This document shows, one piece after another, positions 22,259 through 41,459 of a stretch of 45,354 nt of DNA (positions are counted from its first letter, which is position 1; every line of letters begins with the position of its first letter). The notes beneath the pieces were generated by a model that worked only from the letters and a program-made list of their open reading frames with translations, had not been told where the DNA came from and did not search any database. The stretch is from a virus. A program made the translations under genes and the position numbers. The stretch is taken from IMG/VR virus record IMGVR_UViG_3300050024_000038, positions 1 through 45,354 of that record. The stretch is one strand, 5' to 3'.

Positions 22259-22470
22259 ATTTCTATTTGATGTTCCAATGAAATTGTCTTGAGTCTTTCT
22301 TTTTTTAATTCCTCTTGAGTATTTCTAAGACTAATAAATAATTTATGTGTAAAAGCAATCATTTCTTGTTTGTGAGCTTCTTCTTCAGCTTGTTTAATTA
22401 TGCTGGTAATATTTTTATCGTCAAGGTAAGTTAATTCCGATAGCCATAGTAGTTCTTTTTGTGTCCACAT
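22249..22470 (-). CDS. Small helical protein, unknown
   Basis: A protein of 73 residues, with the ATG at 22470 behind GGAGATAAATA. It is charged and helical, with a likely coiled coil at the end (KKERLKTISLEHQIE). I do not recognise it. It is the last gene of the - operon; its stop lies inside the terminator hairpin. It overlaps the upstream zinc-ribbon gene by 50 bases in another frame. Confidence 0.55.
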   Translation of the reverse strand: MWTQKELLWLSELTYLDDKNITSIIKQAEEEAHKQEMIAFTHKLFISLRNTQEELKKERLKTISLEHQIEMGG

Positions 22471-22633
22471 TATTTATCTCCAAATTTCTGGAAAATCTTT
22501 TACTACAATTAGTACATTCATACCAATAAGAAATAAAAGAAATTCCTAAAAAAGTATTTTTGAACTTCTTCCAAAATTCAGAATTTCTCTTTTTACATCG
22601 TGGGCAACAAGGATTTAATTCTAATTTAGACAT
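22421..22633 (-). CDS. Small zinc-ribbon protein
   Basis: A protein of 70 residues with two CxxC pairs: CPRC near residue 10 and CTNC near residue 40, the spacing of a zinc ribbon. The last 18 residues overlap the next gene, which may explain the unstructured tail. It overlaps the endolysin gene stop by 8 bases. Small zinc ribbons of this sort in phages may bind nucleic acid or host proteins; nothing more specific can be said. Confidence 0.6.
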   Translation of the reverse strand: MSKLELNPCCPRCKKRNSEFWKKFKNTFLGISFISYWYECTNCSKRFSRNLEINNVDTKRTTMAIGINLP

Positions 22634-23234
22634 TTCCTTTTAAACCTTTTTCAAGTTGATCTAACATTGCTCTTATTGTAGTAATATCTTTTTCCCAATC
22701 ATATTTTACTGCTACAGGAGTAGGAGTAGGTGTTATCACTATTGGATTTGCTAAAAAATGTTCATAATGTGCCATTCCATCATGAACATATGTTAATGGA
22801 ATAAACTTGTCTCTAAAACTTCCTGAGTTATATGCATCAAATATATCTTCCAATTTGGTGGGCATGTATTTTAAGATTCTATTATTTATATAATCTAGTA
22901 CCCATTCCATTGTTTTTGAATCATCATTTAAACTAACAGGATCACCATTATACCCCAATTCTCTGGCGGTTTCATACATTATCTGAAAAGAGGAATAAGA
23001 ACAAGAAGCTGGTTTTCCATATTTGGCAATTGCTGCTTGAAGTTCTTTTGAATGATTATACATTCTTCCGCCAACATAAAAAGCTGGTTCAAACCGTGGA
23101 GTTTTGTTTATTCCATAACTTGATTCATTTTGTGCAATAGCTCTTAATAGGGTAACGGAATCAAATTTGAAAGTAAGATAATTGGTTTTTAACTTTGGAG
23201 CATTTTCTATAATGAGTGTATCAATTTCTGACAT
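22626..23234 (-). CDS. Endolysin, lytic transglycosylase (SLT-like) fold
   Basis: A protein of 202 residues with a strong ribosome site (GGAGGAAATAAA). Residues 27-145 show the transglycosylase/goose-lysozyme pattern: LLRAIAQNESSYG with the likely catalytic Glu37, then SYSSFQIM (80-86), and AYNSGS near 134-139. These enzymes cut the MurNAc-GlcNAc bond of peptidoglycan. A Pro/Thr linker (ITPTPTPVAV) and a short helical tail follow. It has no signal peptide, so a holin would be needed. It lies at the end of the - operon, away from the tail genes, and could instead help DNA entry, but the small soluble form suits an endolysin. Confidence 0.8.
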   Translation of the reverse strand: MSEIDTLIIENAPKLKTNYLTFKFDSVTLLRAIAQNESSYGINKTPRFEPAFYVGGRMYNHSKELQAAIAKYGKPASCSYSSFQIMYETARELGYNGDPVSLNDDSKTMEWVLDYINNRILKYMPTKLEDIFDAYNSGSFRDKFIPLTYVHDGMAHYEHFLANPIVITPTPTPVAVKYDWEKDITTIRAMLDQLEKGLKGNV

Positions 23235-23662
23235 TTTATTTCCTCCATTTCGTCAGGTTCATCTTCTTTGAAATAATGTGAACAATCAATACAAGAGAAA
23301 TTCATCCAATTAAAAACTGTAGCATGGTCTAAACAGTTTTCATAAAAGATACAATTTATCTTCCGGTATTTTTCTACTTCTGCAATTGTAACTATTTCAA
23401 TATTTAACTTCTTAGGTTTTGGATACAACAATGGTTCAATTTTGTCAAGTTTTGCCTTCCTTGTTTTCTCTTTTTCTTTATCCTGACATTTATTACACAT
23501 CTTTATTTTAAGTTTTCGAAAATTAACTCCTGTAGCTATTTTAACTCTGCCACATTTACATTTACCTTTCCATAAAGAAGCACCAAACTTATCTCTGCCC
23601 ATAAATTTGATGATTTTATAGAAACCAAATCTTTGATTGAGTAAATCTTTAATATTAGCCAT
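23207..23662 (-). CDS. Two-cluster cysteine protein, probable zinc binder
   Basis: A protein of 151 residues. The first half has CKCG and MCNKC pairs within a WKGKCKCGRVKIATGVNFRK context, a pattern found in phage zinc domains that accompany HNH or AP2-type DNA-binding proteins. The second half has another cysteine group (CIFYENC, then CIDC). Its ATG lies 1 base after the primase stop and its 3' end overlaps the endolysin start by 28 bases. I see no catalytic motif; nucleic-acid binding is a guess from the zinc domain. Confidence 0.55.
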   Translation of the reverse strand: MANIKDLLNQRFGFYKIIKFMGRDKFGASLWKGKCKCGRVKIATGVNFRKLKIKMCNKCQDKEKEKTRKAKLDKIEPLLYPKPKKLNIEIVTIAEVEKYRKINCIFYENCLDHATVFNWMNFSCIDCSHYFKEDEPDEMEEIKCQKLIHSL

Positions 23663-24642: not shown

Positions 24643-26862
24643 TTAACCCCTTATCATTTCTTTCAACCAACCCATTCGTTTATAATACTTTTTCCTCTTA
24701 TCACTGTATTTCCAAAAGTACCTGTCTTCTTCCCCAAAGTCATCATAAATATCTAAAACCAATAATATTTCTTTATATTTTGTTTTCCTTCTTCCTCTAC
24801 CTATCTTTTGTATTAAATTAGATAAATTCTTCCTTCCTGAAGCAACTATAACGGCTTCAATATTTGGAATATCTGTTCCAACTCCAAATACAGGAGTGGA
24901 AATTAACACTGGAATTTGATATTTATTCATTCTTTTTATTATCTTTTCTAATATATCTCCACCTAATCCTGCATGGGCAATTACTGGTTGAGGCAATTTC
25001 TTATTTGCTTTCATTTTAGCAGCAATCGCCATTGCTTGTCTTGTTTCGTCTACCAGAATTAATACATTATCCTTTTTCTTTGTAATTAAAGCATATTCAA
25101 TCATATCAGTAATTAATTTATTTCTTGTAGGGTGTAATAAAAAATCTTGAACATAAATATCTTGATAATATTTATTATTTGTATGATTAACATTTTCAAA
25201 CATGTATGCTTCAACATCGGTGATTCTTTCTTCTGCTTCACTTTCACTTACTTGAGTTACAATTGGACCCAATTGAGATGTTATTCTAAACCAATCTGCT
25301 TTTTGTGCTCTTGGTATAGGAGTTGCGCTTAATCCAATTCTAACCCAAACATCCGGCAAGGATTTTAAAATATTGGCAATTGCTTCTTTAGCTAAGTGGC
25401 ATTCATCTACAATCACCAAGCCACCTTTAAAATATTCATTAAAATCAAATCCCTGTTTCATTAAATTTTGAACTGAATTCCATACAGCAACAATTATTGG
25501 TTTTGCCGATTGTTCTTTACCACAAATTAATCCCACATCGAAACCATAATTCTGTAATTCACTGGTTGTTTTTCTGGCTATATTTTCTCTTGGAGTTGTA
25601 ATTAAAGTTTTTGGATTTCCAAATTTTTTAATTAACCCAAGAGTGATAAAAGTTTTTCCCGAATTGTGAACTATTATTTGATTGGCTGAAAAATTATGAT
25701 ATGGTTCTTTGCAAATAATATCATATGTGGGTTTTTTTCCAACATATTCTATTGATACAGGAAAGGAAAATTGTGGAATTGTTCCTTTGAAATTTAAATC
25801 AGCATTAAATGCATGAGATTGAAGATGTTTTTCTTTTTTCTTATGTATAAGATTTTTAGGATCATTATCAAAATGATCTCCATTTTTATGATGAATATGA
25901 TATTCAGAAGGATTAATGAATTTTAAAGATTTACTTGCTATTTCATCTTTACGAAGAATCCAAATATATTCTGCTAAACTAATATGATTTAATTCTGCTT
26001 CATAAATTGCTCTATGAAGTTCAATTCGTTTAGTCCATCCTCTTGCCATTTTATTTGTTTCTACTTTTTGAGCATATGGATGGAACCATAAATTTGTAAT
26101 CATTTTATCCCACTGTTTTTTCTTTTTTGTATATGATTTGGAGGGATAAATGGGATCAATCATTACTGCATAATCTTTTGAAAATAAATGCAATAGAGGA
26201 ACAAATCCTTTATTGGTCATTATTGGATGATTTTTTGTTCCAATAATGTAATATCCATTTTCAAGAATTAATTTCCAAACGGGTTTAATACCACTAAAAA
26301 CTACATCTTCAATTTCATGTAAAATTATTTGAGAATCATTAAAGGATCGAACAAATGTTGGAATATTAGTATCCCACGATCTTCCATGTTTTTGAATCCC
26401 ATGAAATCTTTTATGCAAATTATACAAAGATATTGAAAATCCCTTTTTGGCTCTGTTAACAGGAATATTAGTATCTCCAATTAAACATCCTGTAGGAGCT
26501 TTAATTACCCCACTATAATTATTGTTAAAAAAATTTAATACTTTTTCCTGATAATCTTCAAACACAATTCCTTTTATTTTAACATCTTTAATCCTGTTAG
26601 GAATATTAGGAACCATTGGACAATCCAAATCATAATTTACACCATCCTGTTCCATTTTAGATATGACGTAGGGAAGCAATCCTAATCCAAATTTGCCACC
26701 TTGTCGGGAAAAGTAGGATTTGGTAGCAGTTACCAATTTTCCTTCGTAGGCTTCCAATTTGGTCTTATATGTGTGAGATAACATTTTATATATATAATCC
26801 CAATGATCTTCATTTCTCAATACTCTACATTGTGATGCATTTAATACTTGAATTTTAATCAT
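24643..26862 (-). CDS. UvsW-like SF2 helicase interrupted by an intein
   Basis: The ORF of 739 residues encodes a superfamily 2 helicase in two pieces (1-125 and 401-739) around an intein. Spliced, it is 464 residues. The Walker A loop is APTG joined to SGKT across the intein; then come DECH (486-489), SATP (512-515) and the motif VI IGRGRR near 693. The layout is close to T4 UvsW/RadD-type ATP-dependent helicases, which move branched DNA and support recombination-driven replication. The gene starts behind GAGGATAATCAGATC and lies between the DnaB-like helicase and primase genes. Without splicing the ATP-binding loop would be broken, so splicing should be needed for activity. Confidence 0.88.
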   Translation of the reverse strand: MIKIQVLNASQCRVLRNEDHWDYIYKMLSHTYKTKLEAYEGKLVTATKSYFSRQGGKFGLGLLPYVISKMEQDGVNYDLDCPMVPNIPNRIKDVKIKGIVFEDYQEKVLNFFNNNYSGVIKAPTGCLIGDTNIPVNRAKKGFSISLYNLHKRFHGIQKHGRSWDTNIPTFVRSFNDSQIILHEIEDVVFSGIKPVWKLILENGYYIIGTKNHPIMTNKGFVPLLHLFSKDYAVMIDPIYPSKSYTKKKKQWDKMITNLWFHPYAQKVETNKMARGWTKRIELHRAIYEAELNHISLAEYIWILRKDEIASKSLKFINPSEYHIHHKNGDHFDNDPKNLIHKKKEKHLQSHAFNADLNFKGTIPQFSFPVSIEYVGKKPTYDIICKEPYHNFSANQIIVHNSGKTFITLGLIKKFGNPKTLITTPRENIARKTTSELQNYGFDVGLICGKEQSAKPIIVAVWNSVQNLMKQGFDFNEYFKGGLVIVDECHLAKEAIANILKSLPDVWVRIGLSATPIPRAQKADWFRITSQLGPIVTQVSESEAEERITDVEAYMFENVNHTNNKYYQDIYVQDFLLHPTRNKLITDMIEYALITKKKDNVLILVDETRQAMAIAAKMKANKKLPQPVIAHAGLGGDILEKIIKRMNKYQIPVLISTPVFGVGTDIPNIEAVIVASGRKNLSNLIQKIGRGRRKTKYKEILLVLDIYDDFGEEDRYFWKYSDKRKKYYKRMGWLKEMIRG
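25663..26487 (-). mobile_element. Intein with HNH homing endonuclease domain
   Basis: Residues 126-400 of the helicase ORF (275 residues). It starts with Cys126 (CLIGDTNIPV, block A) and ends His399-Asn400 followed by Ser401 as the +1 residue (block G, QIIVHN-S). Block B is GTKNHPI with Thr209 and His212; block F is PTYDIICKEPYHNFSA. Between the splicing halves an HNH-type nuclease is visible: LHRAIYEAEL near 282 and YHIHHKNGDHFDNDPKNL from 321. It sits in the Walker A loop, the most conserved point of the host gene and a favoured intein site. Removing it leaves an intact GxxxxGKT loop, which supports the boundaries. Confidence 0.93.
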
Positions 26863-33026: not shown

Positions 33027-33931
33027 TCGTTTAATCCTTTTCCCAATCGAAGTTTTAATACTTCTGTATGGTGTTCATAACAATGGAGTGATTTAGAAGT
33101 AAATGAAAGTGGTCCCGGTTCTACTCCAAGTTCATTTGCAATATATTCGTTAAGAAGAGTAAATCCCCCCATATTCTCAGGAAATCCTCCCCACAAATCC
33201 CATGATCTGTAAATGACTTTTGTTAGAAGATAATTTTTTTCTTGGTAATATGAATTTCCTTTACAAAAAGGACAAGGGTAATAATTAAAAGTACCCACAA
33301 AATTTCTATGCTCTTTACTACAATCTTCACATATAAAAAATTTATCTTCAATTATTCTAAAATCCAAACCTCTTAAACAGGGACTTGTCTTTCTTTCCAT
33401 TTCGTTTTCATAGGGAACATCATAAGCAAAATTGGATTCAGGATAGCCTACAGTTAGAAAACAATGTTCGTTTCCAAAACCTTTTTCCTTGAAATGTTTT
33501 ATAATCCATTCCACTTGATTAGGAACTATTATTGCTTGATTTACTTGTTCAGGAAAAACACCCCACATTTTAGCATTTCTTGCTTCAAATTCAAGTAAAG
33601 GAACATGATAAGAACCGCCCACAATAAAAGTTCCATATCTGTAATCTTCATGCTCTGCCAATTGATTATCCATTAGGTAATTAGCAAAGTATTGATCAAT
33701 TTTATCATCAGTTGTGGGAACAGGTACTCCTTCAGGAAGTATAGGGGCTAAAGGTATTGTATGTGGATAATGAATAAAACCACTTGCATCATCTAATGCT
33801 AAACGATGTTCACCAGCATGTGAACCATCAGTTATTAGATATTTCCTACCTTTTTCATAACAAGCTAGAAGTAATTTAAACCATGCATCATCGAGTGTGG
33901 TTGCATCAATATAAACCGGATTAAATTTCAT
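33023..33931 (-). CDS. Thymidylate synthase-like enzyme with inserted zinc ribbon
   Basis: A protein of 302 residues. The start at 33931 follows GGAGGAC and forms TAATG with the DnaJ-gene stop; the upstream ATG at 33946 has no ribosome site. The ThyA fold is visible: catalytic Cys185 in SPCLRGLDFRI, YRSWD with Arg242, Ser243 and Asp245, PENMGGF with Asn253, and LHCYEHH with His283 and Tyr285. The asparagine at 253 is the one that selects dUMP over dCMP in ThyA. A CxxC-x15-CxxC zinc ribbon (Cys201, 204, 220, 223) is inserted between the catalytic strand and YRSWD, which I do not know from standard ThyA. It could be a thymidylate synthase or a dUMP hydroxymethylase for base modification. Confidence 0.8.
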   Translation of the reverse strand: MKFNPVYIDATTLDDAWFKLLLACYEKGRKYLITDGSHAGEHRLALDDASGFIHYPHTIPLAPILPEGVPVPTTDDKIDQYFANYLMDNQLAEHEDYRYGTFIVGGSYHVPLLEFEARNAKMWGVFPEQVNQAIIVPNQVEWIIKHFKEKGFGNEHCFLTVGYPESNFAYDVPYENEMERKTSPCLRGLDFRIIEDKFFICEDCSKEHRNFVGTFNYYPCPFCKGNSYYQEKNYLLTKVIYRSWDLWGGFPENMGGFTLLNEYIANELGVEPGPLSFTSKSLHCYEHHTEVLKLRLGKGLNE

Positions 33932-34245
33932 TAAAAAGTCCTCCATACTGTTGCTGTTCCTGTTCCACTAAAAGAAAATGTCATTGAAAAAGTAGGTTGT
34001 GGTCTACTCATTCCCAATTTCAATTTCATTAATTGTTTATATGCATTATTTAATTCCAACATTCTTTCATGATCTCCACCCTTATCGGGATGATACTTTA
34101 ATGCTAATTCTCTATATTTTGCTTTGATATTTTGTTTTAGTTCCTTTAATGCTAAAGGAGGATTTGGACTACTTAAAACTATATCCAAATCCTCCGTACC
34201 CATCTCCAATATTGTCATTAATTCAGGGATTGAAGATGCTTTCAT
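33931..34245 (-). CDS. DnaJ-domain protein
   Basis: A protein of 104 residues. The J domain lies at about 35-75: KAKYRELALKYHPDKGGDHE with the diagnostic HPD, then LNNAYKQL. The protein ends soon after with a Ser/Thr/Phe-rich tail and has none of the zinc or peptide-binding parts of full DnaJ. J domains stimulate Hsp70 ATPase, so it could bring host DnaK to a phage process such as replication complex remodelling. The start is 1 base after the stop of the holin-like gene; its own ribosome site is weak, which suggests coupling. Confidence 0.85.
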   Translation of the reverse strand: MKASSIPELMTILEMGTEDLDIVLSSPNPPLALKELKQNIKAKYRELALKYHPDKGGDHERMLELNNAYKQLMKLKLGMSRPQPTFSMTFSFSGTGTATVWRTF

Positions 34246-35411: not shown

Positions 35412-35993
35412 TTATTCTCCAATTCTTATTACATTTTTTCCTGCTTCTATTAATTCATCTTCATGAGATATTATGATTAATTGAGTTTCTAATTGTTCAG
35501 AACTACCCTTTAACACATCACAAACCGCTTGTAAACGATTTCTTTTAGTGTTCGTAAGTGGCTCATCTAAAAGGAGAATTTGGATATTGTCCGATTCCAA
35601 CTTGAGACAGGCAAGCCTCAAAGTATATGAAATAACATCTAAAACACTTCCTCCACATGTATCTTCTTTTGGTTCTAATAAAACACCATTTTTATTGAGA
35701 AAGAAATGTGGTTCTTGTGCATCTCTCCTGTCTTCAATAGTTATAACAAAGGAATATTCTTCACCATGTACTGATTGTAATGCAGTAGTTACTATATCTT
35801 CGAAATATGCTTTTACTTTTTCTTGATGCCTTCGACTGAGTTCTCCTATTAATGTTTTATATTCTTCCAAAGTCTCAAGTTGATTAGAAAGATAAATACA
35901 TTCTTTCTTGGCTTTAGCCAATTGAGATTTTGCATATTTAATTTCAGCAACACCTTTAGATATAATTTCGTTTAATTTATCAATCTTCCTCAT
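35412..35993 (-). CDS. Rad50/SbcC-like ATPase, C-terminal lobe as a separate protein
   Basis: A protein of 193 residues. After a coiled-coil start (1-55) it carries the second half of an SMC/Rad50-type ATP-binding head: ABC signature CGGSVLDVIS (113-122), Walker B ILLLDEPL (139-146) and the H-loop ISHEDEL (175-181). It has no Walker A and no zinc hook. Both are in the separate gene at 37366-38451, so the two proteins should join to form one ATPase head. Together with the Mre11-like nuclease encoded between them they would process DNA ends for recombination, as gp46/gp47 do in T4. It overlaps the 86-residue coiled-coil gene by 14 bases. Confidence 0.85.
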   Translation of the reverse strand: MRKIDKLNEIISKGVAEIKYAKSQLAKAKKECIYLSNQLETLEEYKTLIGELSRRHQEKVKAYFEDIVTTALQSVHGEEYSFVITIEDRRDAQEPHFFLNKNGVLLEPKEDTCGGSVLDVISYTLRLACLKLESDNIQILLLDEPLTNTKRNRLQAVCDVLKGSSEQLETQLIIISHEDELIEAGKNVIRIGE

Positions 35994-36240
35994 TGAGAAT
36001 TCCCGCCTTAATCATGTCATTTTCGATAACATCAATTTCATCAGTCAATTCTTTTTCTTTTCTATTTATTTTATCAGTTATCTTTTTTCTCTCTGCTTTA
36101 GCTTCTTCAAGTGAATCACAATCAAACTCTTCAGCCAATTTTTTCTTATACAATTTTTCAGAAGCTATTCGCTGATCATTTTGTTCTTTGAATTCTTCAT
36201 ATGTTTCTCTTAGTTGTTTAAGCTTATCTTCTGGTTTCAT
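35980..36240 (-). CDS. Small coiled-coil protein next to the Rad50 C-lobe
   Basis: A protein of 86 residues, almost wholly charged helix (KAERKKITDKINRKEKEL), starting at an ATG that overlaps the previous small gene by 4 bases, with GAGG ten bases upstream. It overlaps the Rad50 C-lobe gene start. It could supply part of the returning coiled-coil arm that the short C-lobe lacks, or bridge it to the N-lobe arm. That is inferred from position and helix content; I see no catalytic motif. Confidence 0.65.
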   Translation of the reverse strand: MKPEDKLKQLRETYEEFKEQNDQRIASEKLYKKKLAEEFDCDSLEEAKAERKKITDKINRKEKELTDEIDVIENDMIKAGILNEED

Positions 36241-36392
36241 ATGATTGTAGCCTCTACAATATCTTTTGTCACATCTTCAAGAATTTCAACCTCTTCTTCT
36301 TTTTCTTTTTCAGTAGGCAAAAGATAGTAAATTGCAATTGCTCCGATAATAACCAATGCCCCTATACCAATCCATTTTAACCCTACCCACAT
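36237..36392 (-). CDS. 51-residue single-span membrane protein
   Basis: A gene of 51 codons with a strong ribosome site (AAAAAGGAGAGATTAA). It starts with MWVGLKWIGIGALVIIGAIA, a membrane helix, followed by an acidic tail (TEKEKEEEVEILEDV). The ATG directly follows the SbcD stop and its TGA overlaps the next ATG by 4 bases, so it fills the space between two coupled genes. Function unknown; its place inside the Rad50/Mre11 cluster is striking. Confidence 0.75.
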   Translation of the reverse strand: MWVGLKWIGIGALVIIGAIAIYYLLPTEKEKEEEVEILEDVTKDIVEATII

Positions 36393-37379
36393 TTAATCTC
36401 TCCTTTTTAATTTGAGTTTACTAACTTCTGCACCAAAGGATATTTTTTCTCCAATAACTCTTTTAAGTGAATCTCGTATTTCTTGCTTTAACTCTTCGTC
36501 AATGTTTTCGTCAAGTACTTGTATAAGCAAATTCAAAAATCCTGAAACATTTCCAACTACCTTACTTTTGTTGATTATATCAACAATATTGGACATACTA
36601 TTTCTAATTTCTCTGGTGGTTCTTGTTAATTCAAGGTGAGATTCACTGATTACTTCATCGTATTCTTTAGCACATTTGAGAAAATATTTTTCATATTCAA
36701 GTGTATCCAATTCAATTATAACTACATGGGGATTGTGTTCATTATCCTCATTTGCATCTCTTCTACAAAGACAACCGGGATTAATTAATAAACTTTCAAT
36801 TTGATCAAGATCATCTAATTTTTTATGAATATAAGGTTTATGCCAATCACCACATAAGATCAACTGATATTGTTTCATCATTTCCCATTGAAGGCAATGG
36901 TCCGGATTGGCTTTTATCCATGCTCTATGATTATTCTTCCTTGTTATAATTGGCCTATGAGATACAAGAAAGCATTCATCCTTATTTCCAATTAGTTCTC
37001 CCCAATCAAGATAGGCAAATCCATATTGAAAAGACTCAAATTCAGAAATATGTTTTACATTTAATAAGTTTTCATATAATGCACCAAGAGCAGTATGCCC
37101 AAAAGTTTCTAAGGTATGCCACCACAAATCATGCTGTCCGATGACAAAATAGAAATCATTATTTAGTCGTCTAAGTTCTTTTGATAGACGGTTATAAAGT
37201 GAATAAGCAAGATTGGGGATATTAGTTACATCCCCATTACAGATAATAGGAGCATTTAAGTCATTTGATAGATTGATTACTTCCCTTAACTTTACAAATT
37301 GGAGTTCGGTAAGATCATCTTTTCTGCAAATAGGATTTTTACCTGAGATATGAATATCACTTAAATTAATGATTTTCAT
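36393..37379 (-). CDS. Mre11/SbcD-like nuclease (metallophosphoesterase)
   Basis: A protein of 328 residues. The start at 37379 (MKIINLSDIHIS) has GAGGAATCCC upstream and overlaps the end of the Rad50 N-lobe gene; the longer frame to 37430 is not needed. Metallophosphoesterase motifs appear in order: SDIHI, NGDVTN, GQHDLW, SHRPI and CGDWHKP. These coordinate two metal ions, usually Mn, in Mre11, SbcD and T4 gp47. The C-terminal 80 residues are helical and could bind the Rad50 arms. The gene lies between the two parts of the Rad50-like ATPase. Confidence 0.88.
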   Translation of the reverse strand: MKIINLSDIHISGKNPICRKDDLTELQFVKLREVINLSNDLNAPIICNGDVTNIPNLAYSLYNRLSKELRRLNNDFYFVIGQHDLWWHTLETFGHTALGALYENLLNVKHISEFESFQYGFAYLDWGELIGNKDECFLVSHRPIITRKNNHRAWIKANPDHCLQWEMMKQYQLILCGDWHKPYIHKKLDDLDQIESLLINPGCLCRRDANEDNEHNPHVVIIELDTLEYEKYFLKCAKEYDEVISESHLELTRTTREIRNSMSNIVDIINKSKVVGNVSGFLNLLIQVLDENIDEELKQEIRDSLKRVIGEKISFGAEVSKLKLKRRD

Positions 37380-38451
37380 GGGATTCCTCATTAATAATTT
37401 TTCCACATACGGGACATATACCAATTTCATTTAAAAGTTTTTTGTAATCATCTTTTATCTTTTTCATTCTGGCAACTATTTCATTGTTACCATATTCAAT
37501 CATAAGTTCTACGGTTTCATTAAGAGTTTTGTAATAACTTTTTAAATTATTTAATGTTTCTTGGGTAAAAGTTGCATTTTCAATTCTACTTTTAATTTCT
37601 TTTATTATATCTTGATGTAGTGGTTTCATTTCTTCTAGCACATCAATTATTTTATCCAACTGATCGTGTTTTTTTGTTAATTGTCTTTGGTCAAAATTCA
37701 TTTTTTCAATCCTTTCCATTCTGCCTCTAAAACTTTCCATAGTTAGAGGATGAACATATTTGATTGATTCCAGTGCATCAATTAGAAATGAAATATCCTT
37801 TAGACGTTTATTCATACTTTCAATAGTTATTTGATACTTATGAATTACATTAAGCCTTTTTTCAAATTCAAGAATCGGTTCCAATTTCTCTATTGTTTCC
37901 TGAGCTTGTTTCTTGAGTGCTATTTGAAGTTTGAAAGCTGTCCTGCATTTATTAAGTTGTTCCTTATTATCATCCTGAATCTTCTTTTGATCTTCTAAAC
38001 CAAATGCTTTAACTAATTTAGCATTGGCAGTTCCACCAGTTTCAAATATAAGATAATGTACCTTGGGAACTTGTTTTTCCCAATTAATTTCTCTTAATGG
38101 AAGAATTTGTTGAACAGGTTCAGGAACATTTTGACCAAACTTGGTTAAATTGTGAATGAGTTTGTCTGATTCATATATTTTATATCTATTCCTTGTTCGT
38201 TCAATTCGATAGTTTGTTCCATCTTTTCTAGTCTCAACTGCAACAAAGAAATCCTTTTGCTTGTTATATGCAAATTTACGGTGAGCATTACTAGGCTTAT
38301 TATGAGCAACCAAATACAGACCCTTAAAGAACGTGGATTTCCCCGCATCATTATCACCTATGATTACATTTGATGTTGGAATGAATTCAACTCTGATCCA
38401 TTGCTTATGAATACCAAAGTTTTTTAATTCAATTGAAGTAAGAATTTGCAT
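37366..38451 (-). CDS. Rad50/SbcC-like ATPase, N-terminal lobe with zinc hook
   Basis: A protein of 361 residues from the ATG at 38451, behind GAGGGAGTATTGAAA; a TTG at 38457 is an alternative. Walker A is GDNDAGKS (32-39). After the N-lobe there is a coiled coil of about 190 residues, then the zinc-hook motif CPVC at 346-349, and the protein ends 12 residues later. A normal SbcC/Rad50 would turn back here and continue to the C-lobe; here that lobe is encoded separately at 35412-35993. Two hooks sharing one zinc would still join two arms. The gene is followed at once by the SbcD-like gene. Confidence 0.88.
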   Translation of the reverse strand: MQILTSIELKNFGIHKQWIRVEFIPTSNVIIGDNDAGKSTFFKGLYLVAHNKPSNAHRKFAYNKQKDFFVAVETRKDGTNYRIERTRNRYKIYESDKLIHNLTKFGQNVPEPVQQILPLREINWEKQVPKVHYLIFETGGTANAKLVKAFGLEDQKKIQDDNKEQLNKCRTAFKLQIALKKQAQETIEKLEPILEFEKRLNVIHKYQITIESMNKRLKDISFLIDALESIKYVHPLTMESFRGRMERIEKMNFDQRQLTKKHDQLDKIIDVLEEMKPLHQDIIKEIKSRIENATFTQETLNNLKSYYKTLNETVELMIEYGNNEIVARMKKIKDDYKKLLNEIGICPVCGKIINEESHENH

Positions 38452-39379: not shown

Positions 39380-39634
39380 TCATATTTTAGCTAAACAATC
39401 TTGTAGCATTTGAAAAAGAAGTGGACGATCCAATCTAATTTGTTCACAAGTATGTTGAGCAAAATTCATGGGATCAATAAATGCAAAGAATAATTGAATT
39501 TCTTGAAATATTTTCCAATTGGAACTTCCAATACATTGTTCCACATATCCTTCTAAATCCTTTCTCCTATCAATATCTTGTATTTGACTTATCTTTTTTA
39601 TTTTATTAGTCATTCTTCTTATTTGTTCTTGCAT
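39380..39634 (-). CDS. Unknown small helical protein
   Basis: A protein of 84 residues behind TGGAGAAATTAA. It is helical with two cysteines (EQCIGSSNW, HTCEQIRL) and I see no known domain. It overlaps the end of the nuclease gene by 29 bases, so it is co-translated with it. Confidence 0.55.
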   Translation of the reverse strand: MQEQIRRMTNKIKKISQIQDIDRRKDLEGYVEQCIGSSNWKIFQEIQLFFAFIDPMNFAQHTCEQIRLDRPLLFQMLQDCLAKI

Positions 39635-40214
39635 TTAATTTCTCCACTAATATCGTTAATTTGCACCAATCAAGGAATTTATCAAGTGAATAAATCGTAT
39701 AGTTTCCGTCATCATCTGATAAATCAATAAAGTCGAATGGTGGTACACCAAATAAATCAATGCAAACGTGGAATATTGAAGTAGGAACGCCCATACAAGC
39801 CCTTTTATTGGGCCGTCTGAAAATAACAATTGGTTCCCGCCCCGTTTTCTCTGCATCAACTAAACTTTCTTGCCAAAATTCCTTAAATTGAACAGGATTC
39901 TTGGTGTTGGATGAATCGATACAATCAAGTAAGCACCAATTAGTTTTACTTACTATTCCACTTTTGTTTTTTCGTTTCTTACGATAGCCCGTTTTTAATT
40001 CAAAGTTGAATACATCAATTAATGGTTTGCCAATTTCATCTTTATATCCAAGATCACCGTGTTCATTGGCAGTTTGCTTTCCTCTTTTAAAACGTGATGT
40101 AGCTCTTGCTCCTGATCCACCAGTTCTCCAAAATATATCATCACGTTTACCATTAGTCCAATTAAGACTGATCAGAGTAGCAATTTCTCTTTCAAAATCT
40201 CCACCTTTAGCCAT
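39606..40214 (-). CDS. PD-(D/E)xK nuclease, possible Holliday junction resolvase-like
   Basis: A protein of 202 residues from the ATG at 40214; a TTG five codons upstream (40229) is the alternative. The N-terminal 75 residues show the restriction-endonuclease fold: a helix with acidic residues (GGDFEREIA), RTGGSGARAT, HGDLGY with Asp54, and FNFELKTG with Glu72-x-Lys74. This order is like phage nucleases and resolvases that cut branched or ssDNA/dsDNA junctions. Its place downstream of RecA supports a recombination role. The 138 bases before it (40215-40352) hold no gene I can support. Confidence 0.7.
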   Translation of the reverse strand: MAKGGDFEREIATLISLNWTNGKRDDIFWRTGGSGARATSRFKRGKQTANEHGDLGYKDEIGKPLIDVFNFELKTGYRKKRKNKSGIVSKTNWCLLDCIDSSNTKNPVQFKEFWQESLVDAEKTGREPIVIFRRPNKRACMGVPTSIFHVCIDLFGVPPFDFIDLSDDDGNYTIYSLDKFLDWCKLTILVEKLNARTNKKND

Positions 40215-40352
40215 TTTAATTACTTTCAATTGTCTTCATCTTCAGCCATGTATTTAGGTTTTAATCATTTTCAATGAAATTAAATTTCCAATCGGCTCAA
40301 CGAAAATAAAAAGAAGTAAAACAATCTCCATGTATTATTTCATATTTTCTCA

Positions 40353-41459
40353 TTAATCTTCACCATTACTGTACTTTGGACGAAGATCAACTTCAGCTTC
40401 TTTTTCCAATTCATTCCATGTCTCTTGTACTAATTCAAGAATTTCTTCCCAATCATTAGGATGTTTATCAAGAAATTGTCTAAATTCATCTCTGGTATAT
40501 TTTTTATCTTTCCACCATATTTTATTCTTTCCTTCAAGCATATCATGATCTTTAAGGAAATCAATACAACTTCCATAATTGTCAACACCATATGCAAATA
40601 GAATATCAAAACTTACAGTACGATATGGGGAGGCTACTTTATTTTTCTTGCATACGGAAACAATTCTTATTCCCTTAACAATCTTACTTTTATCTGTCTT
40701 GTATTTCTCTGCTTCATGTAACCAGAATACCTGTGAGGCGTAAAAATCTAATGCTTTACCACCACTTCTCTTTTGTTTTGCCCCAAACATAACTCCGATA
40801 TTATCTCTTGTCTGAGATATAATAAAAAGAATACAATTAGTATGATTCATTTCTTGAGCCATATTCCTGAAGAATTCACTCATACCTTTTGCTTTTCCTG
40901 CCCCCATTGTTCCTTTTATTTTTTCATCTTCTGAATTGTCATCGTCATCTTTTTCCATTTTCTTGATTGTTGCATTGAGCTTTTTATTCAATTTAACTTT
41001 TTCAGCTTCATCACTTAATGCATCAAGAGAATCAAGAATATAAATAATAAGATAAGCATCAGGATTATCCCGTATGCTTTTCCACAAATTTGCATGAAAT
41101 TGATCGACAGTTTTTGAATTAATCCAGATAATATCATCGACAGGAACTCCTAATTTAATTGCCCATTCCATGTCAAATGCTGCTTCAGGTTCATCATAAA
41201 AAATTATTACTTTCTTATCTAATTTTTTATGTGTCCAATACCATGCTACATTAACTAATTCTTCAGCCAATAAAGTTTTACCAGTTGAATTATCTCCAAC
41301 AACATTAACAAATCTACCTCTTACATATCCTTTGTCTATTTTGCCGGATAACATTAAGTTAAGCATAACAGAACCAGAATTAACCCATACTTTCTTTTGT
41401 CTTGGATTATTTAATTCATCTTTAAATACTTTCTTTGTTGCCATTTTAGTTTTTGCCAT
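40353..41459 (-). CDS. RecA/UvsX-like recombinase
   Basis: A protein of 368 residues behind AAGGAAACCAA. Walker A is GDNSTGKT (55-62), Walker B YIIYILDSLDAL (about 138-149), and the DNA-binding loop region reads FIISQTRDNIGVMF, then KRSGGKALDFYASQVFWL. RecA proteins coat ssDNA and carry out strand exchange; with the SSB upstream and the UvsW-like helicase downstream this gives a T4-like recombination set. An acidic insert (EKDDDDNSEDEK) lies near residue 170. The C-terminal 90 residues are charged and unlike E. coli RecA. Confidence 0.9.
   Translation of the reverse strand: MAKTKMATKKVFKDELNNPRQKKVWVNSGSVMLNLMLSGKIDKGYVRGRFVNVVGDNSTGKTLLAEELVNVAWYWTHKKLDKKVIIFYDEPEAAFDMEWAIKLGVPVDDIIWINSKTVDQFHANLWKSIRDNPDAYLIIYILDSLDALSDEAEKVKLNKKLNATIKKMEKDDDDNSEDEKIKGTMGAGKAKGMSEFFRNMAQEMNHTNCILFIISQTRDNIGVMFGAKQKRSGGKALDFYASQVFWLHEAEKYKTDKSKIVKGIRIVSVCKKNKVASPYRTVSFDILFAYGVDNYGSCIDFLKDHDMLEGKNKIWWKDKKYTRDEFRQFLDKHPNDWEEILELVQETWNELEKEAEVDLRPKYSNGED

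Follow-up and report, generated by a model that had tools for sequence, protein, structure and literature searches.

Must the Rad50 subunit of an SbcCD (Mre11-Rad50) complex be a single chain that folds back upon itself, or can it be encoded in pieces? The question is raised by a group of genes on the IMG/VR virus record IMGVR_UViG_3300050024_000038, which is 45,354 nucleotides (nt) long and is referred to in its entirety as the window; coordinates without a prefix are window coordinates. Rad50 is one of the best-conserved ATPases of DNA-break repair, and signals are believed to reach its head by way of the long fold-back arm and the hook. It is an ATP-binding cassette (ABC) ATPase with an N-terminal Walker A motif, C-terminal Walker B and signature motifs, and a coiled coil that ends in a CXXC hook (PMC7260605; PMC5093744). 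In the window these elements are shared between two proteins, here called the N-half and the C-half, and the locus is best read as a phage SbcCD system whose Rad50 is naturally encoded in separate chains that would form a composite ATPase head, a reading drawn from sequence to which a probability of about 0.87 can be given.

The module consists of five tightly packed genes on the minus strand, running from 38451 to 35412. The first encodes the SbcC/Rad50 N-half of 361 amino acids (aa; 37366-38451), which comprises the N-lobe, the outward arm and a predicted C-terminal zinc hook, and it is followed by an SbcD/Mre11-like nuclease (330 aa, 36393-37385), a single-pass membrane protein (51 aa, 36237-36392), a coil protein (86 aa, 35980-36240) and the SbcC/Rad50 C-half (193 aa, 35412-35993). 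The genes for the N-half and SbcD overlap by 20 nt, those for the membrane protein and the coil by 4 nt, and those for the coil and the C-half by 14 nt, whilst those for SbcD and the membrane protein abut. Most of the genes have a purine-rich stretch, read by eye, 5' of the start. The first-pass annotation had located both the open reading frames (ORFs) and their motifs correctly. It had also set the break exactly at the hook; the cut does fall in the hook region, but just past it, so that the whole CxxC stays with the N-half. The 51-aa membrane protein is absent from the layouts of other split loci, for which reason it was rejected as a member of the module and is probably a bystander.

The two halves divide the motifs of the ABC head between them, all on the minus strand. 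The N-half contains a Walker A motif, GDNDAGKS (residues 32-39, 38335-38358), in which G32, G37 and K38 are invariant in 21 N-halves, and a Q-loop glutamine, Q127 (38071-38073), that is equally invariant, and these are the features of lobe I of SbcC/Rad50. Its predicted hook, CPVC (residues 346-349, 37405-37416), has C346, P347 and C349 invariant in the N-half alignment, corresponds to the CxxC at the arm tip of SbcC/Rad50 and is followed by exactly 12 residues before the chain ends. Matches to Pfam AAA_15 (4e-11) and AAA_23 (4e-7) are both above cut-off. The C-half provides lobe II, with an ABC signature of the degenerate form CGGS (residues 113-116, 35646-35657; G114 and G115 invariant in 20 C-halves), a Walker B motif, ILLLDEP (residues 139-145, 35559-35579), and an H-loop histidine, H177, within SHED (35463-35465); D143 and E144 of Walker B and the histidine are invariant in the C-half alignment. 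Its Pfam match, to SMC_N (1e-3), is below cut-off, and it matches PHROG 15167 at 3e-21. The structural model of the C-half, with a predicted local distance difference test score (pLDDT) of 83.6, consists of a single 75-residue helix that leads into lobe II, and resembles Rad50 lobe II and the heads of SMC proteins; the N-lobe of the N-half model aligns to 1f2u_C over 101 columns with 29% identity. The motifs of an ABC head are thus complete only when both halves are taken together, and neither half alone has them all. There is a single Rad50-type N-lobe in the whole window record, and hence no full-length Rad50 copy there; the same count of one per genome was found in the other records searched.

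Since the familiar SbcC/Rad50 proteins, such as T4 gp46 and E. coli SbcC, are single chains, the locus could be thought to represent a single-chain SbcC that has decayed or been mis-assembled, having been cut by a deletion, an insertion or a frameshift. This is contradicted by the relatives. A tblastn search with the window C-half led to Bacillus phage vB_BboS-125, which has an N-half of 471 aa ending GGICPLCEQTHKGGGC, a coil of 78 aa, a C-half of 211 aa and SbcD, and to Microcystis phage Mvi-JY20, with an N-half of 332 aa ending LTPCSQCNRLVLGGNPCQSSS, SbcD, a coil of 94 aa and a C-half of 205 aa. The Bacillus phage C-half in turn led to a Bacillota set of 27 IMG/VR contigs and 4 Bacillota genomes, some of which are copies of one another, and all 31 of these 31 loci are split, with an N-half of 449-520 aa that ends soon after the CxxC, a coil gene of 75-79 aa, a separate C-half and SbcD. 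A jumbo-type set, related to a 485-kb phage, adds six loci with the same N-half, together with locus L085; in the jumbo-type locus L050 the contig end precedes the C-half. In total the same cut, with the motifs intact, is found at 42 loci, from Bacillota (pro)phages, the Microcystis phage, jumbo-phage contigs, a Tunturiibacter phage and locus L083. The 40 N-halves among them form 29 clusters at 95% identity and 15 at 50%, and their hooks lie 3-16 residues from the C-terminus (median 10), whereas single-chain SbcCs (n=8) continue for 269-539 residues beyond theirs. The first-pass annotation had named, as grounds for abandoning its idea of a natural two-chain Rad50, relatives with one full-length gene that is broken here; the relatives carry the same split, and the idea is borne out by a cut that keeps all ATPase motifs in two halves and recurs at around 40 loci in several phage lineages, with proteins that form a family of their own. 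Dozens of phages and prophages, only distantly related to each other, share this cut, so that the split Rad50 is a real and stable design and not a broken gene. Constant gene lengths, separate gene starts and halves that stay intact across different gene orders also argue against decay, which, along with assembly error and frameshift fusion, was rejected because of the conserved split and can be considered extremely unlikely.

Conservation of gene order, which the first-pass annotation had named as a sign that would support its idea, is partial. SbcD lies between the halves in Mvi-JY20 and L083, but not in the Bacillota phages. The order in L083 (PDDEXK, N-half, SbcD, coil, C-half) is that of the window, and it stands behind a P-loop ATPase ORF that occupies the place of RecA in the window. 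In Tunturiibacter phage Tunturi_5 an N-half ending LCGKCGDPISKSAA is followed directly by a coil gene of 97 aa, with SbcD downstream, and the C-half is encoded some 108 kb from the N-half, yet both halves persist. Every complete genome examined encodes SbcD along with the two halves. No direct relatives of the window N-half, C-half or RecA were recovered from IMG/VR by peptide patterns, and six aligned C-halves proved too diverged for a pattern search; no phage DNA near-identical to the window was found. An AP2-domain gene, perhaps a mobile endonuclease, is present between the N-half and the coil in 8 of the 31 Bacillota loci (e.g. L002:5089-5661), and in jumbo-type loci a Cas4-like PD-(D/E)XK nuclease and a sliding-clamp-like protein are encoded between SbcD and the C-half (L048:14189-16636).

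The split proteins can also be recognised as one family. Profiles for the C-half and the N-half were built from the Bacillota and jumbo-type proteins, with the window excluded, and gave C-half/N-half scores of 90.6/56.8 bits for the window, 122/118 for Microbacterium phage Magritte, 79/93 for Tunturi_5 and 45/65 for Mvi-JY20, whereas the best single-chain SbcC (n=8) reached 20.6 and 20.5 bits, respectively. The window C-half is hence a member of the split C-half family, which corresponds to PHROG 15167. In a tree of the C-lobe all 20 split sequences are placed on one side of a 99/98 branch that separates them from the single-chain proteins, and it is likely, on this comparison of sequences, that the split halves have one origin. 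Among the sequences in the PDB, the C-half profile matches best the B chains of Pyrococcus furiosus Rad50 that was divided for crystallisation (3qkr, 1ii8, 1us8, 1f2t), and the N-half profile matches the corresponding A chains as well as the Rad50 zinc-hook fragment 6zff.

These matches, together with a motif set that is complete only jointly, point to a composite head, two of which would be present per complex with an SbcD dimer. Alternatively, the N-half and the C-half might be separate proteins that serve different partners and have no joint ATPase, as could be suggested by their distant genes in Tunturi_5 and Magritte and by the sliding-clamp-like gene that adjoins the C-half in jumbo phages. 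Each half, however, holds its own share of the motifs invariant whilst lacking the ABC ATPase set when alone, the halves co-occur with SbcD, and in crystals the divided P. furiosus Rad50 forms a head from two chains (1f2t, chains A and B), so that independent roles appear unlikely. Nor do the halves look like precursors of an ordinary chain. Split inteins occur in phages and a helicase of the window has a probable intein, and a split intein could in principle join the halves after translation to give a normal single-chain Rad50; Pfam detects no intein domain in either half, though, and the short tail of 3-16 residues past the hook, along with a window C-half that starts directly with its helix, leaves no room for intein halves. 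Such splicing has only a very slight chance of being the explanation.

Several observations weigh against a multi-chain Rad50 or the place of the coil within it. The N-half model is weak, with a pLDDT of 65.9 and values below 50 for residues 95-153. In Magritte both halves are present, as are a coil and SbcD, but the N-half of 350 aa is without a CxxC, and the genes are scattered, the N-half (L015:1492-2544) lying far from the C-half (L006:284-934). The single-chain set used for comparison is small, at eight proteins, and there are long branches in the tree. A profile search with the coil recovers neither the window coil nor the coils of other distant members, and the pairwise score of the window coil with that of L083 or Mvi-JY20 is within the range of shuffled sequences. 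Finally, the Bacillota outward arm has 300 or 346 residues as against 151 for the return.

The coil protein is nevertheless a probable third subunit, since a coil gene of 75-97 aa accompanies the SbcD gene in every split lineage examined, despite the differing gene order, and the small ORFs between genes 47 and 46 of T4 and between SbcD and SbcC of S-SSM4, which were considered as equivalents, were rejected as their sequences are unlike coils. No sequence similarity to the others was detected for the window coil, so that size, position and helical composition are the only grounds for calling it homologous, and its heptad periodicity is no better than that of shuffles (0.13). The proposal that the coil supplies part of the return arm fits its constant presence and the lengths in the window, where an outward arm of 193 residues roughly suits a return of 160 (74 from the C-half helix and 86 from the coil), but does not fit the Bacillota lengths, and this role is unproven. 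The two-chain head could be real and the coil lie outside the Rad50 arm, as an accessory hairpin such as a regulator of SbcD or a loader. Bacillota coils contain a fixed GVTPET turn in mid-sequence that suggests a hairpin, coil and C-half helix together amount to only half of the outward arm in these phages, and in Tunturi_5 the coil adjoins the N-half rather than the C-half; set against the window lengths, these features make the accessory role a serious possibility, if one that stops short of being probable.

The sequences show the split and its conservation, the intact motifs, the membership of one family and the linkage of the genes; assembly, stoichiometry, coil placement and activity of the multi-chain Rad50 can be pictured as follows. 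The N-half would give lobe I with its Walker A and Q-loop, the outward arm and the zinc hook, and the C-half the last stretch of the return helix and lobe II with the signature, Walker B and H-loop. The two would associate into one composite ABC head, and two such heads would form an ATP-bound dimer together with an SbcD dimer. Zinc may pair the hooks, each of which stands at the free end of its N-half, and this is plausible for a hook at a chain end given that zinc-hook peptides of 4-14 residues suffice for a zinc-bound dimer (PMC5093744). The coil might complete the return arm by spanning the gap between the hook and the C-half, or be seated on the arm. Long helices are predicted in the models of the N-half and the C-half, and the heptad periodicity of the N-half arm helices is better than that of shuffles (0.006 and 0.012). 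The Bacillota arm is made up of tandem 47-residue repeats (autocorrelation z = 18 at lag 47 and 11.5 at lag 94), and its length differs between phages by about one repeat unit (300/346, 242/289); examples of such a repeat array are found in L021:5764-7179 and likewise in other Bacillota N-halves. A fuller version of the model, tentative and at somewhat less than even odds, would be a new Rad50 architecture with three subunits, namely the N-half, the small coil and the C-half. The N-half chain would end freely at the hook, the return arm would be detachable as a piece of its own, and the rod could thereby open or exchange arms; the outward arm of many members is, in this version, a 47-residue tandem array that varies by whole units and not a plain coiled coil.

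Beside the phage RecA, the complex would serve recombination-dependent replication by processing DNA ends. T4 gp46/gp47 perform end processing in this mode of replication, and the neighbourhood of the module, with its RecA, PDDEXK nuclease, 5'-3' exonuclease and ResIII-type helicase, fits such a function. The SbcD of the window has a metallophosphoesterase domain (Pfam Metallophos, 7e-8, above cut-off) but lacks the canonical GNHD and GHxH metal motifs of SbcD/Mre11. It has GQHD and GDWH in their place, and GQHD with GDxH is common to the SbcDs of three diverged phages, namely the window, Mvi-JY20 and L083 (36393-37385 on the minus strand, L004:4579-5538 and L083:7124-8128), whereas the other aligned SbcDs have GNHD and GHxH. 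As these positions are metal ligands in Mre11, the metal chemistry of this clade may be different. The SbcD gene of vB_BboS-125 (L002:6929-7909; about 22423-23403 of NC_048735.1) is unannotated in the public record.

The window system resembles known SbcC/Rad50 (E. coli SbcC, T4 gp46) with SbcD/Mre11 in its ABC head motifs, its arm-tip CxxC hook, its SbcD-like partner gene and its recombination gene context. Known SbcCs are, however, single chains of 560-1048 aa in which the hook is followed by 269-539 residues. In place of such a chain the window and its relatives have two separate genes and a coil gene, and the window system is therefore a variant of SbcC/Rad50 and not an ordinary member. 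The divided P. furiosus Rad50 (1f2t, 1ii8, 3qkr) likewise has lobes I and II on separate polypeptides, and these form one head, as is proposed for the window; it is a laboratory construct without the hook, unlike the natural division just past the hook seen here. RloC (PMC2610378), an anticodon nuclease that resembles Rad50, shares the ATPase and the zinc hook, but is set apart as a tRNase and not a partner of SbcD. No description of a naturally split SbcC or Rad50 was found in the open-access literature, which was the scope of the search, and the genome paper covering Bacillus phage 125 makes no mention of SbcC or Rad50; a naturally split Rad50 has apparently not been described before. For the Bacillus phage 125 type, the N-half, the coil and the C-half correspond to PHROG 16465 (exonuclease), 18563 (unknown) and 15167 (ATPase), respectively, and three phage protein families that stand under separate names can thus be given a common function. 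That the chain is naturally cut beside the hook suggests that Rad50 can do without an unbroken backbone through the tip, and the split Rad50 offers a ready system in which the arm, the hook and each lobe can be tested by mixing chains.

Next to the module, on the minus strand, is a PDDEXK endonuclease gene (39606-40229), to which the neighbouring ORF in L083 looks alike, and the same gene cluster contains a RecA-like recombinase (40353-41459, minus strand). In the ResIII-type helicase (24643-26862, minus strand) an intein that has an HNH-like motif apparently breaks up the Walker A motif (KAPTG|CLIGDTNI...IIVHN|SGKT), for which the match to Pfam Intein_splicing (4.9e-6) is below cut-off. A small DnaJ-domain protein (Pfam DnaJ, 2e-8) is encoded at 33931-34245 on the minus strand.
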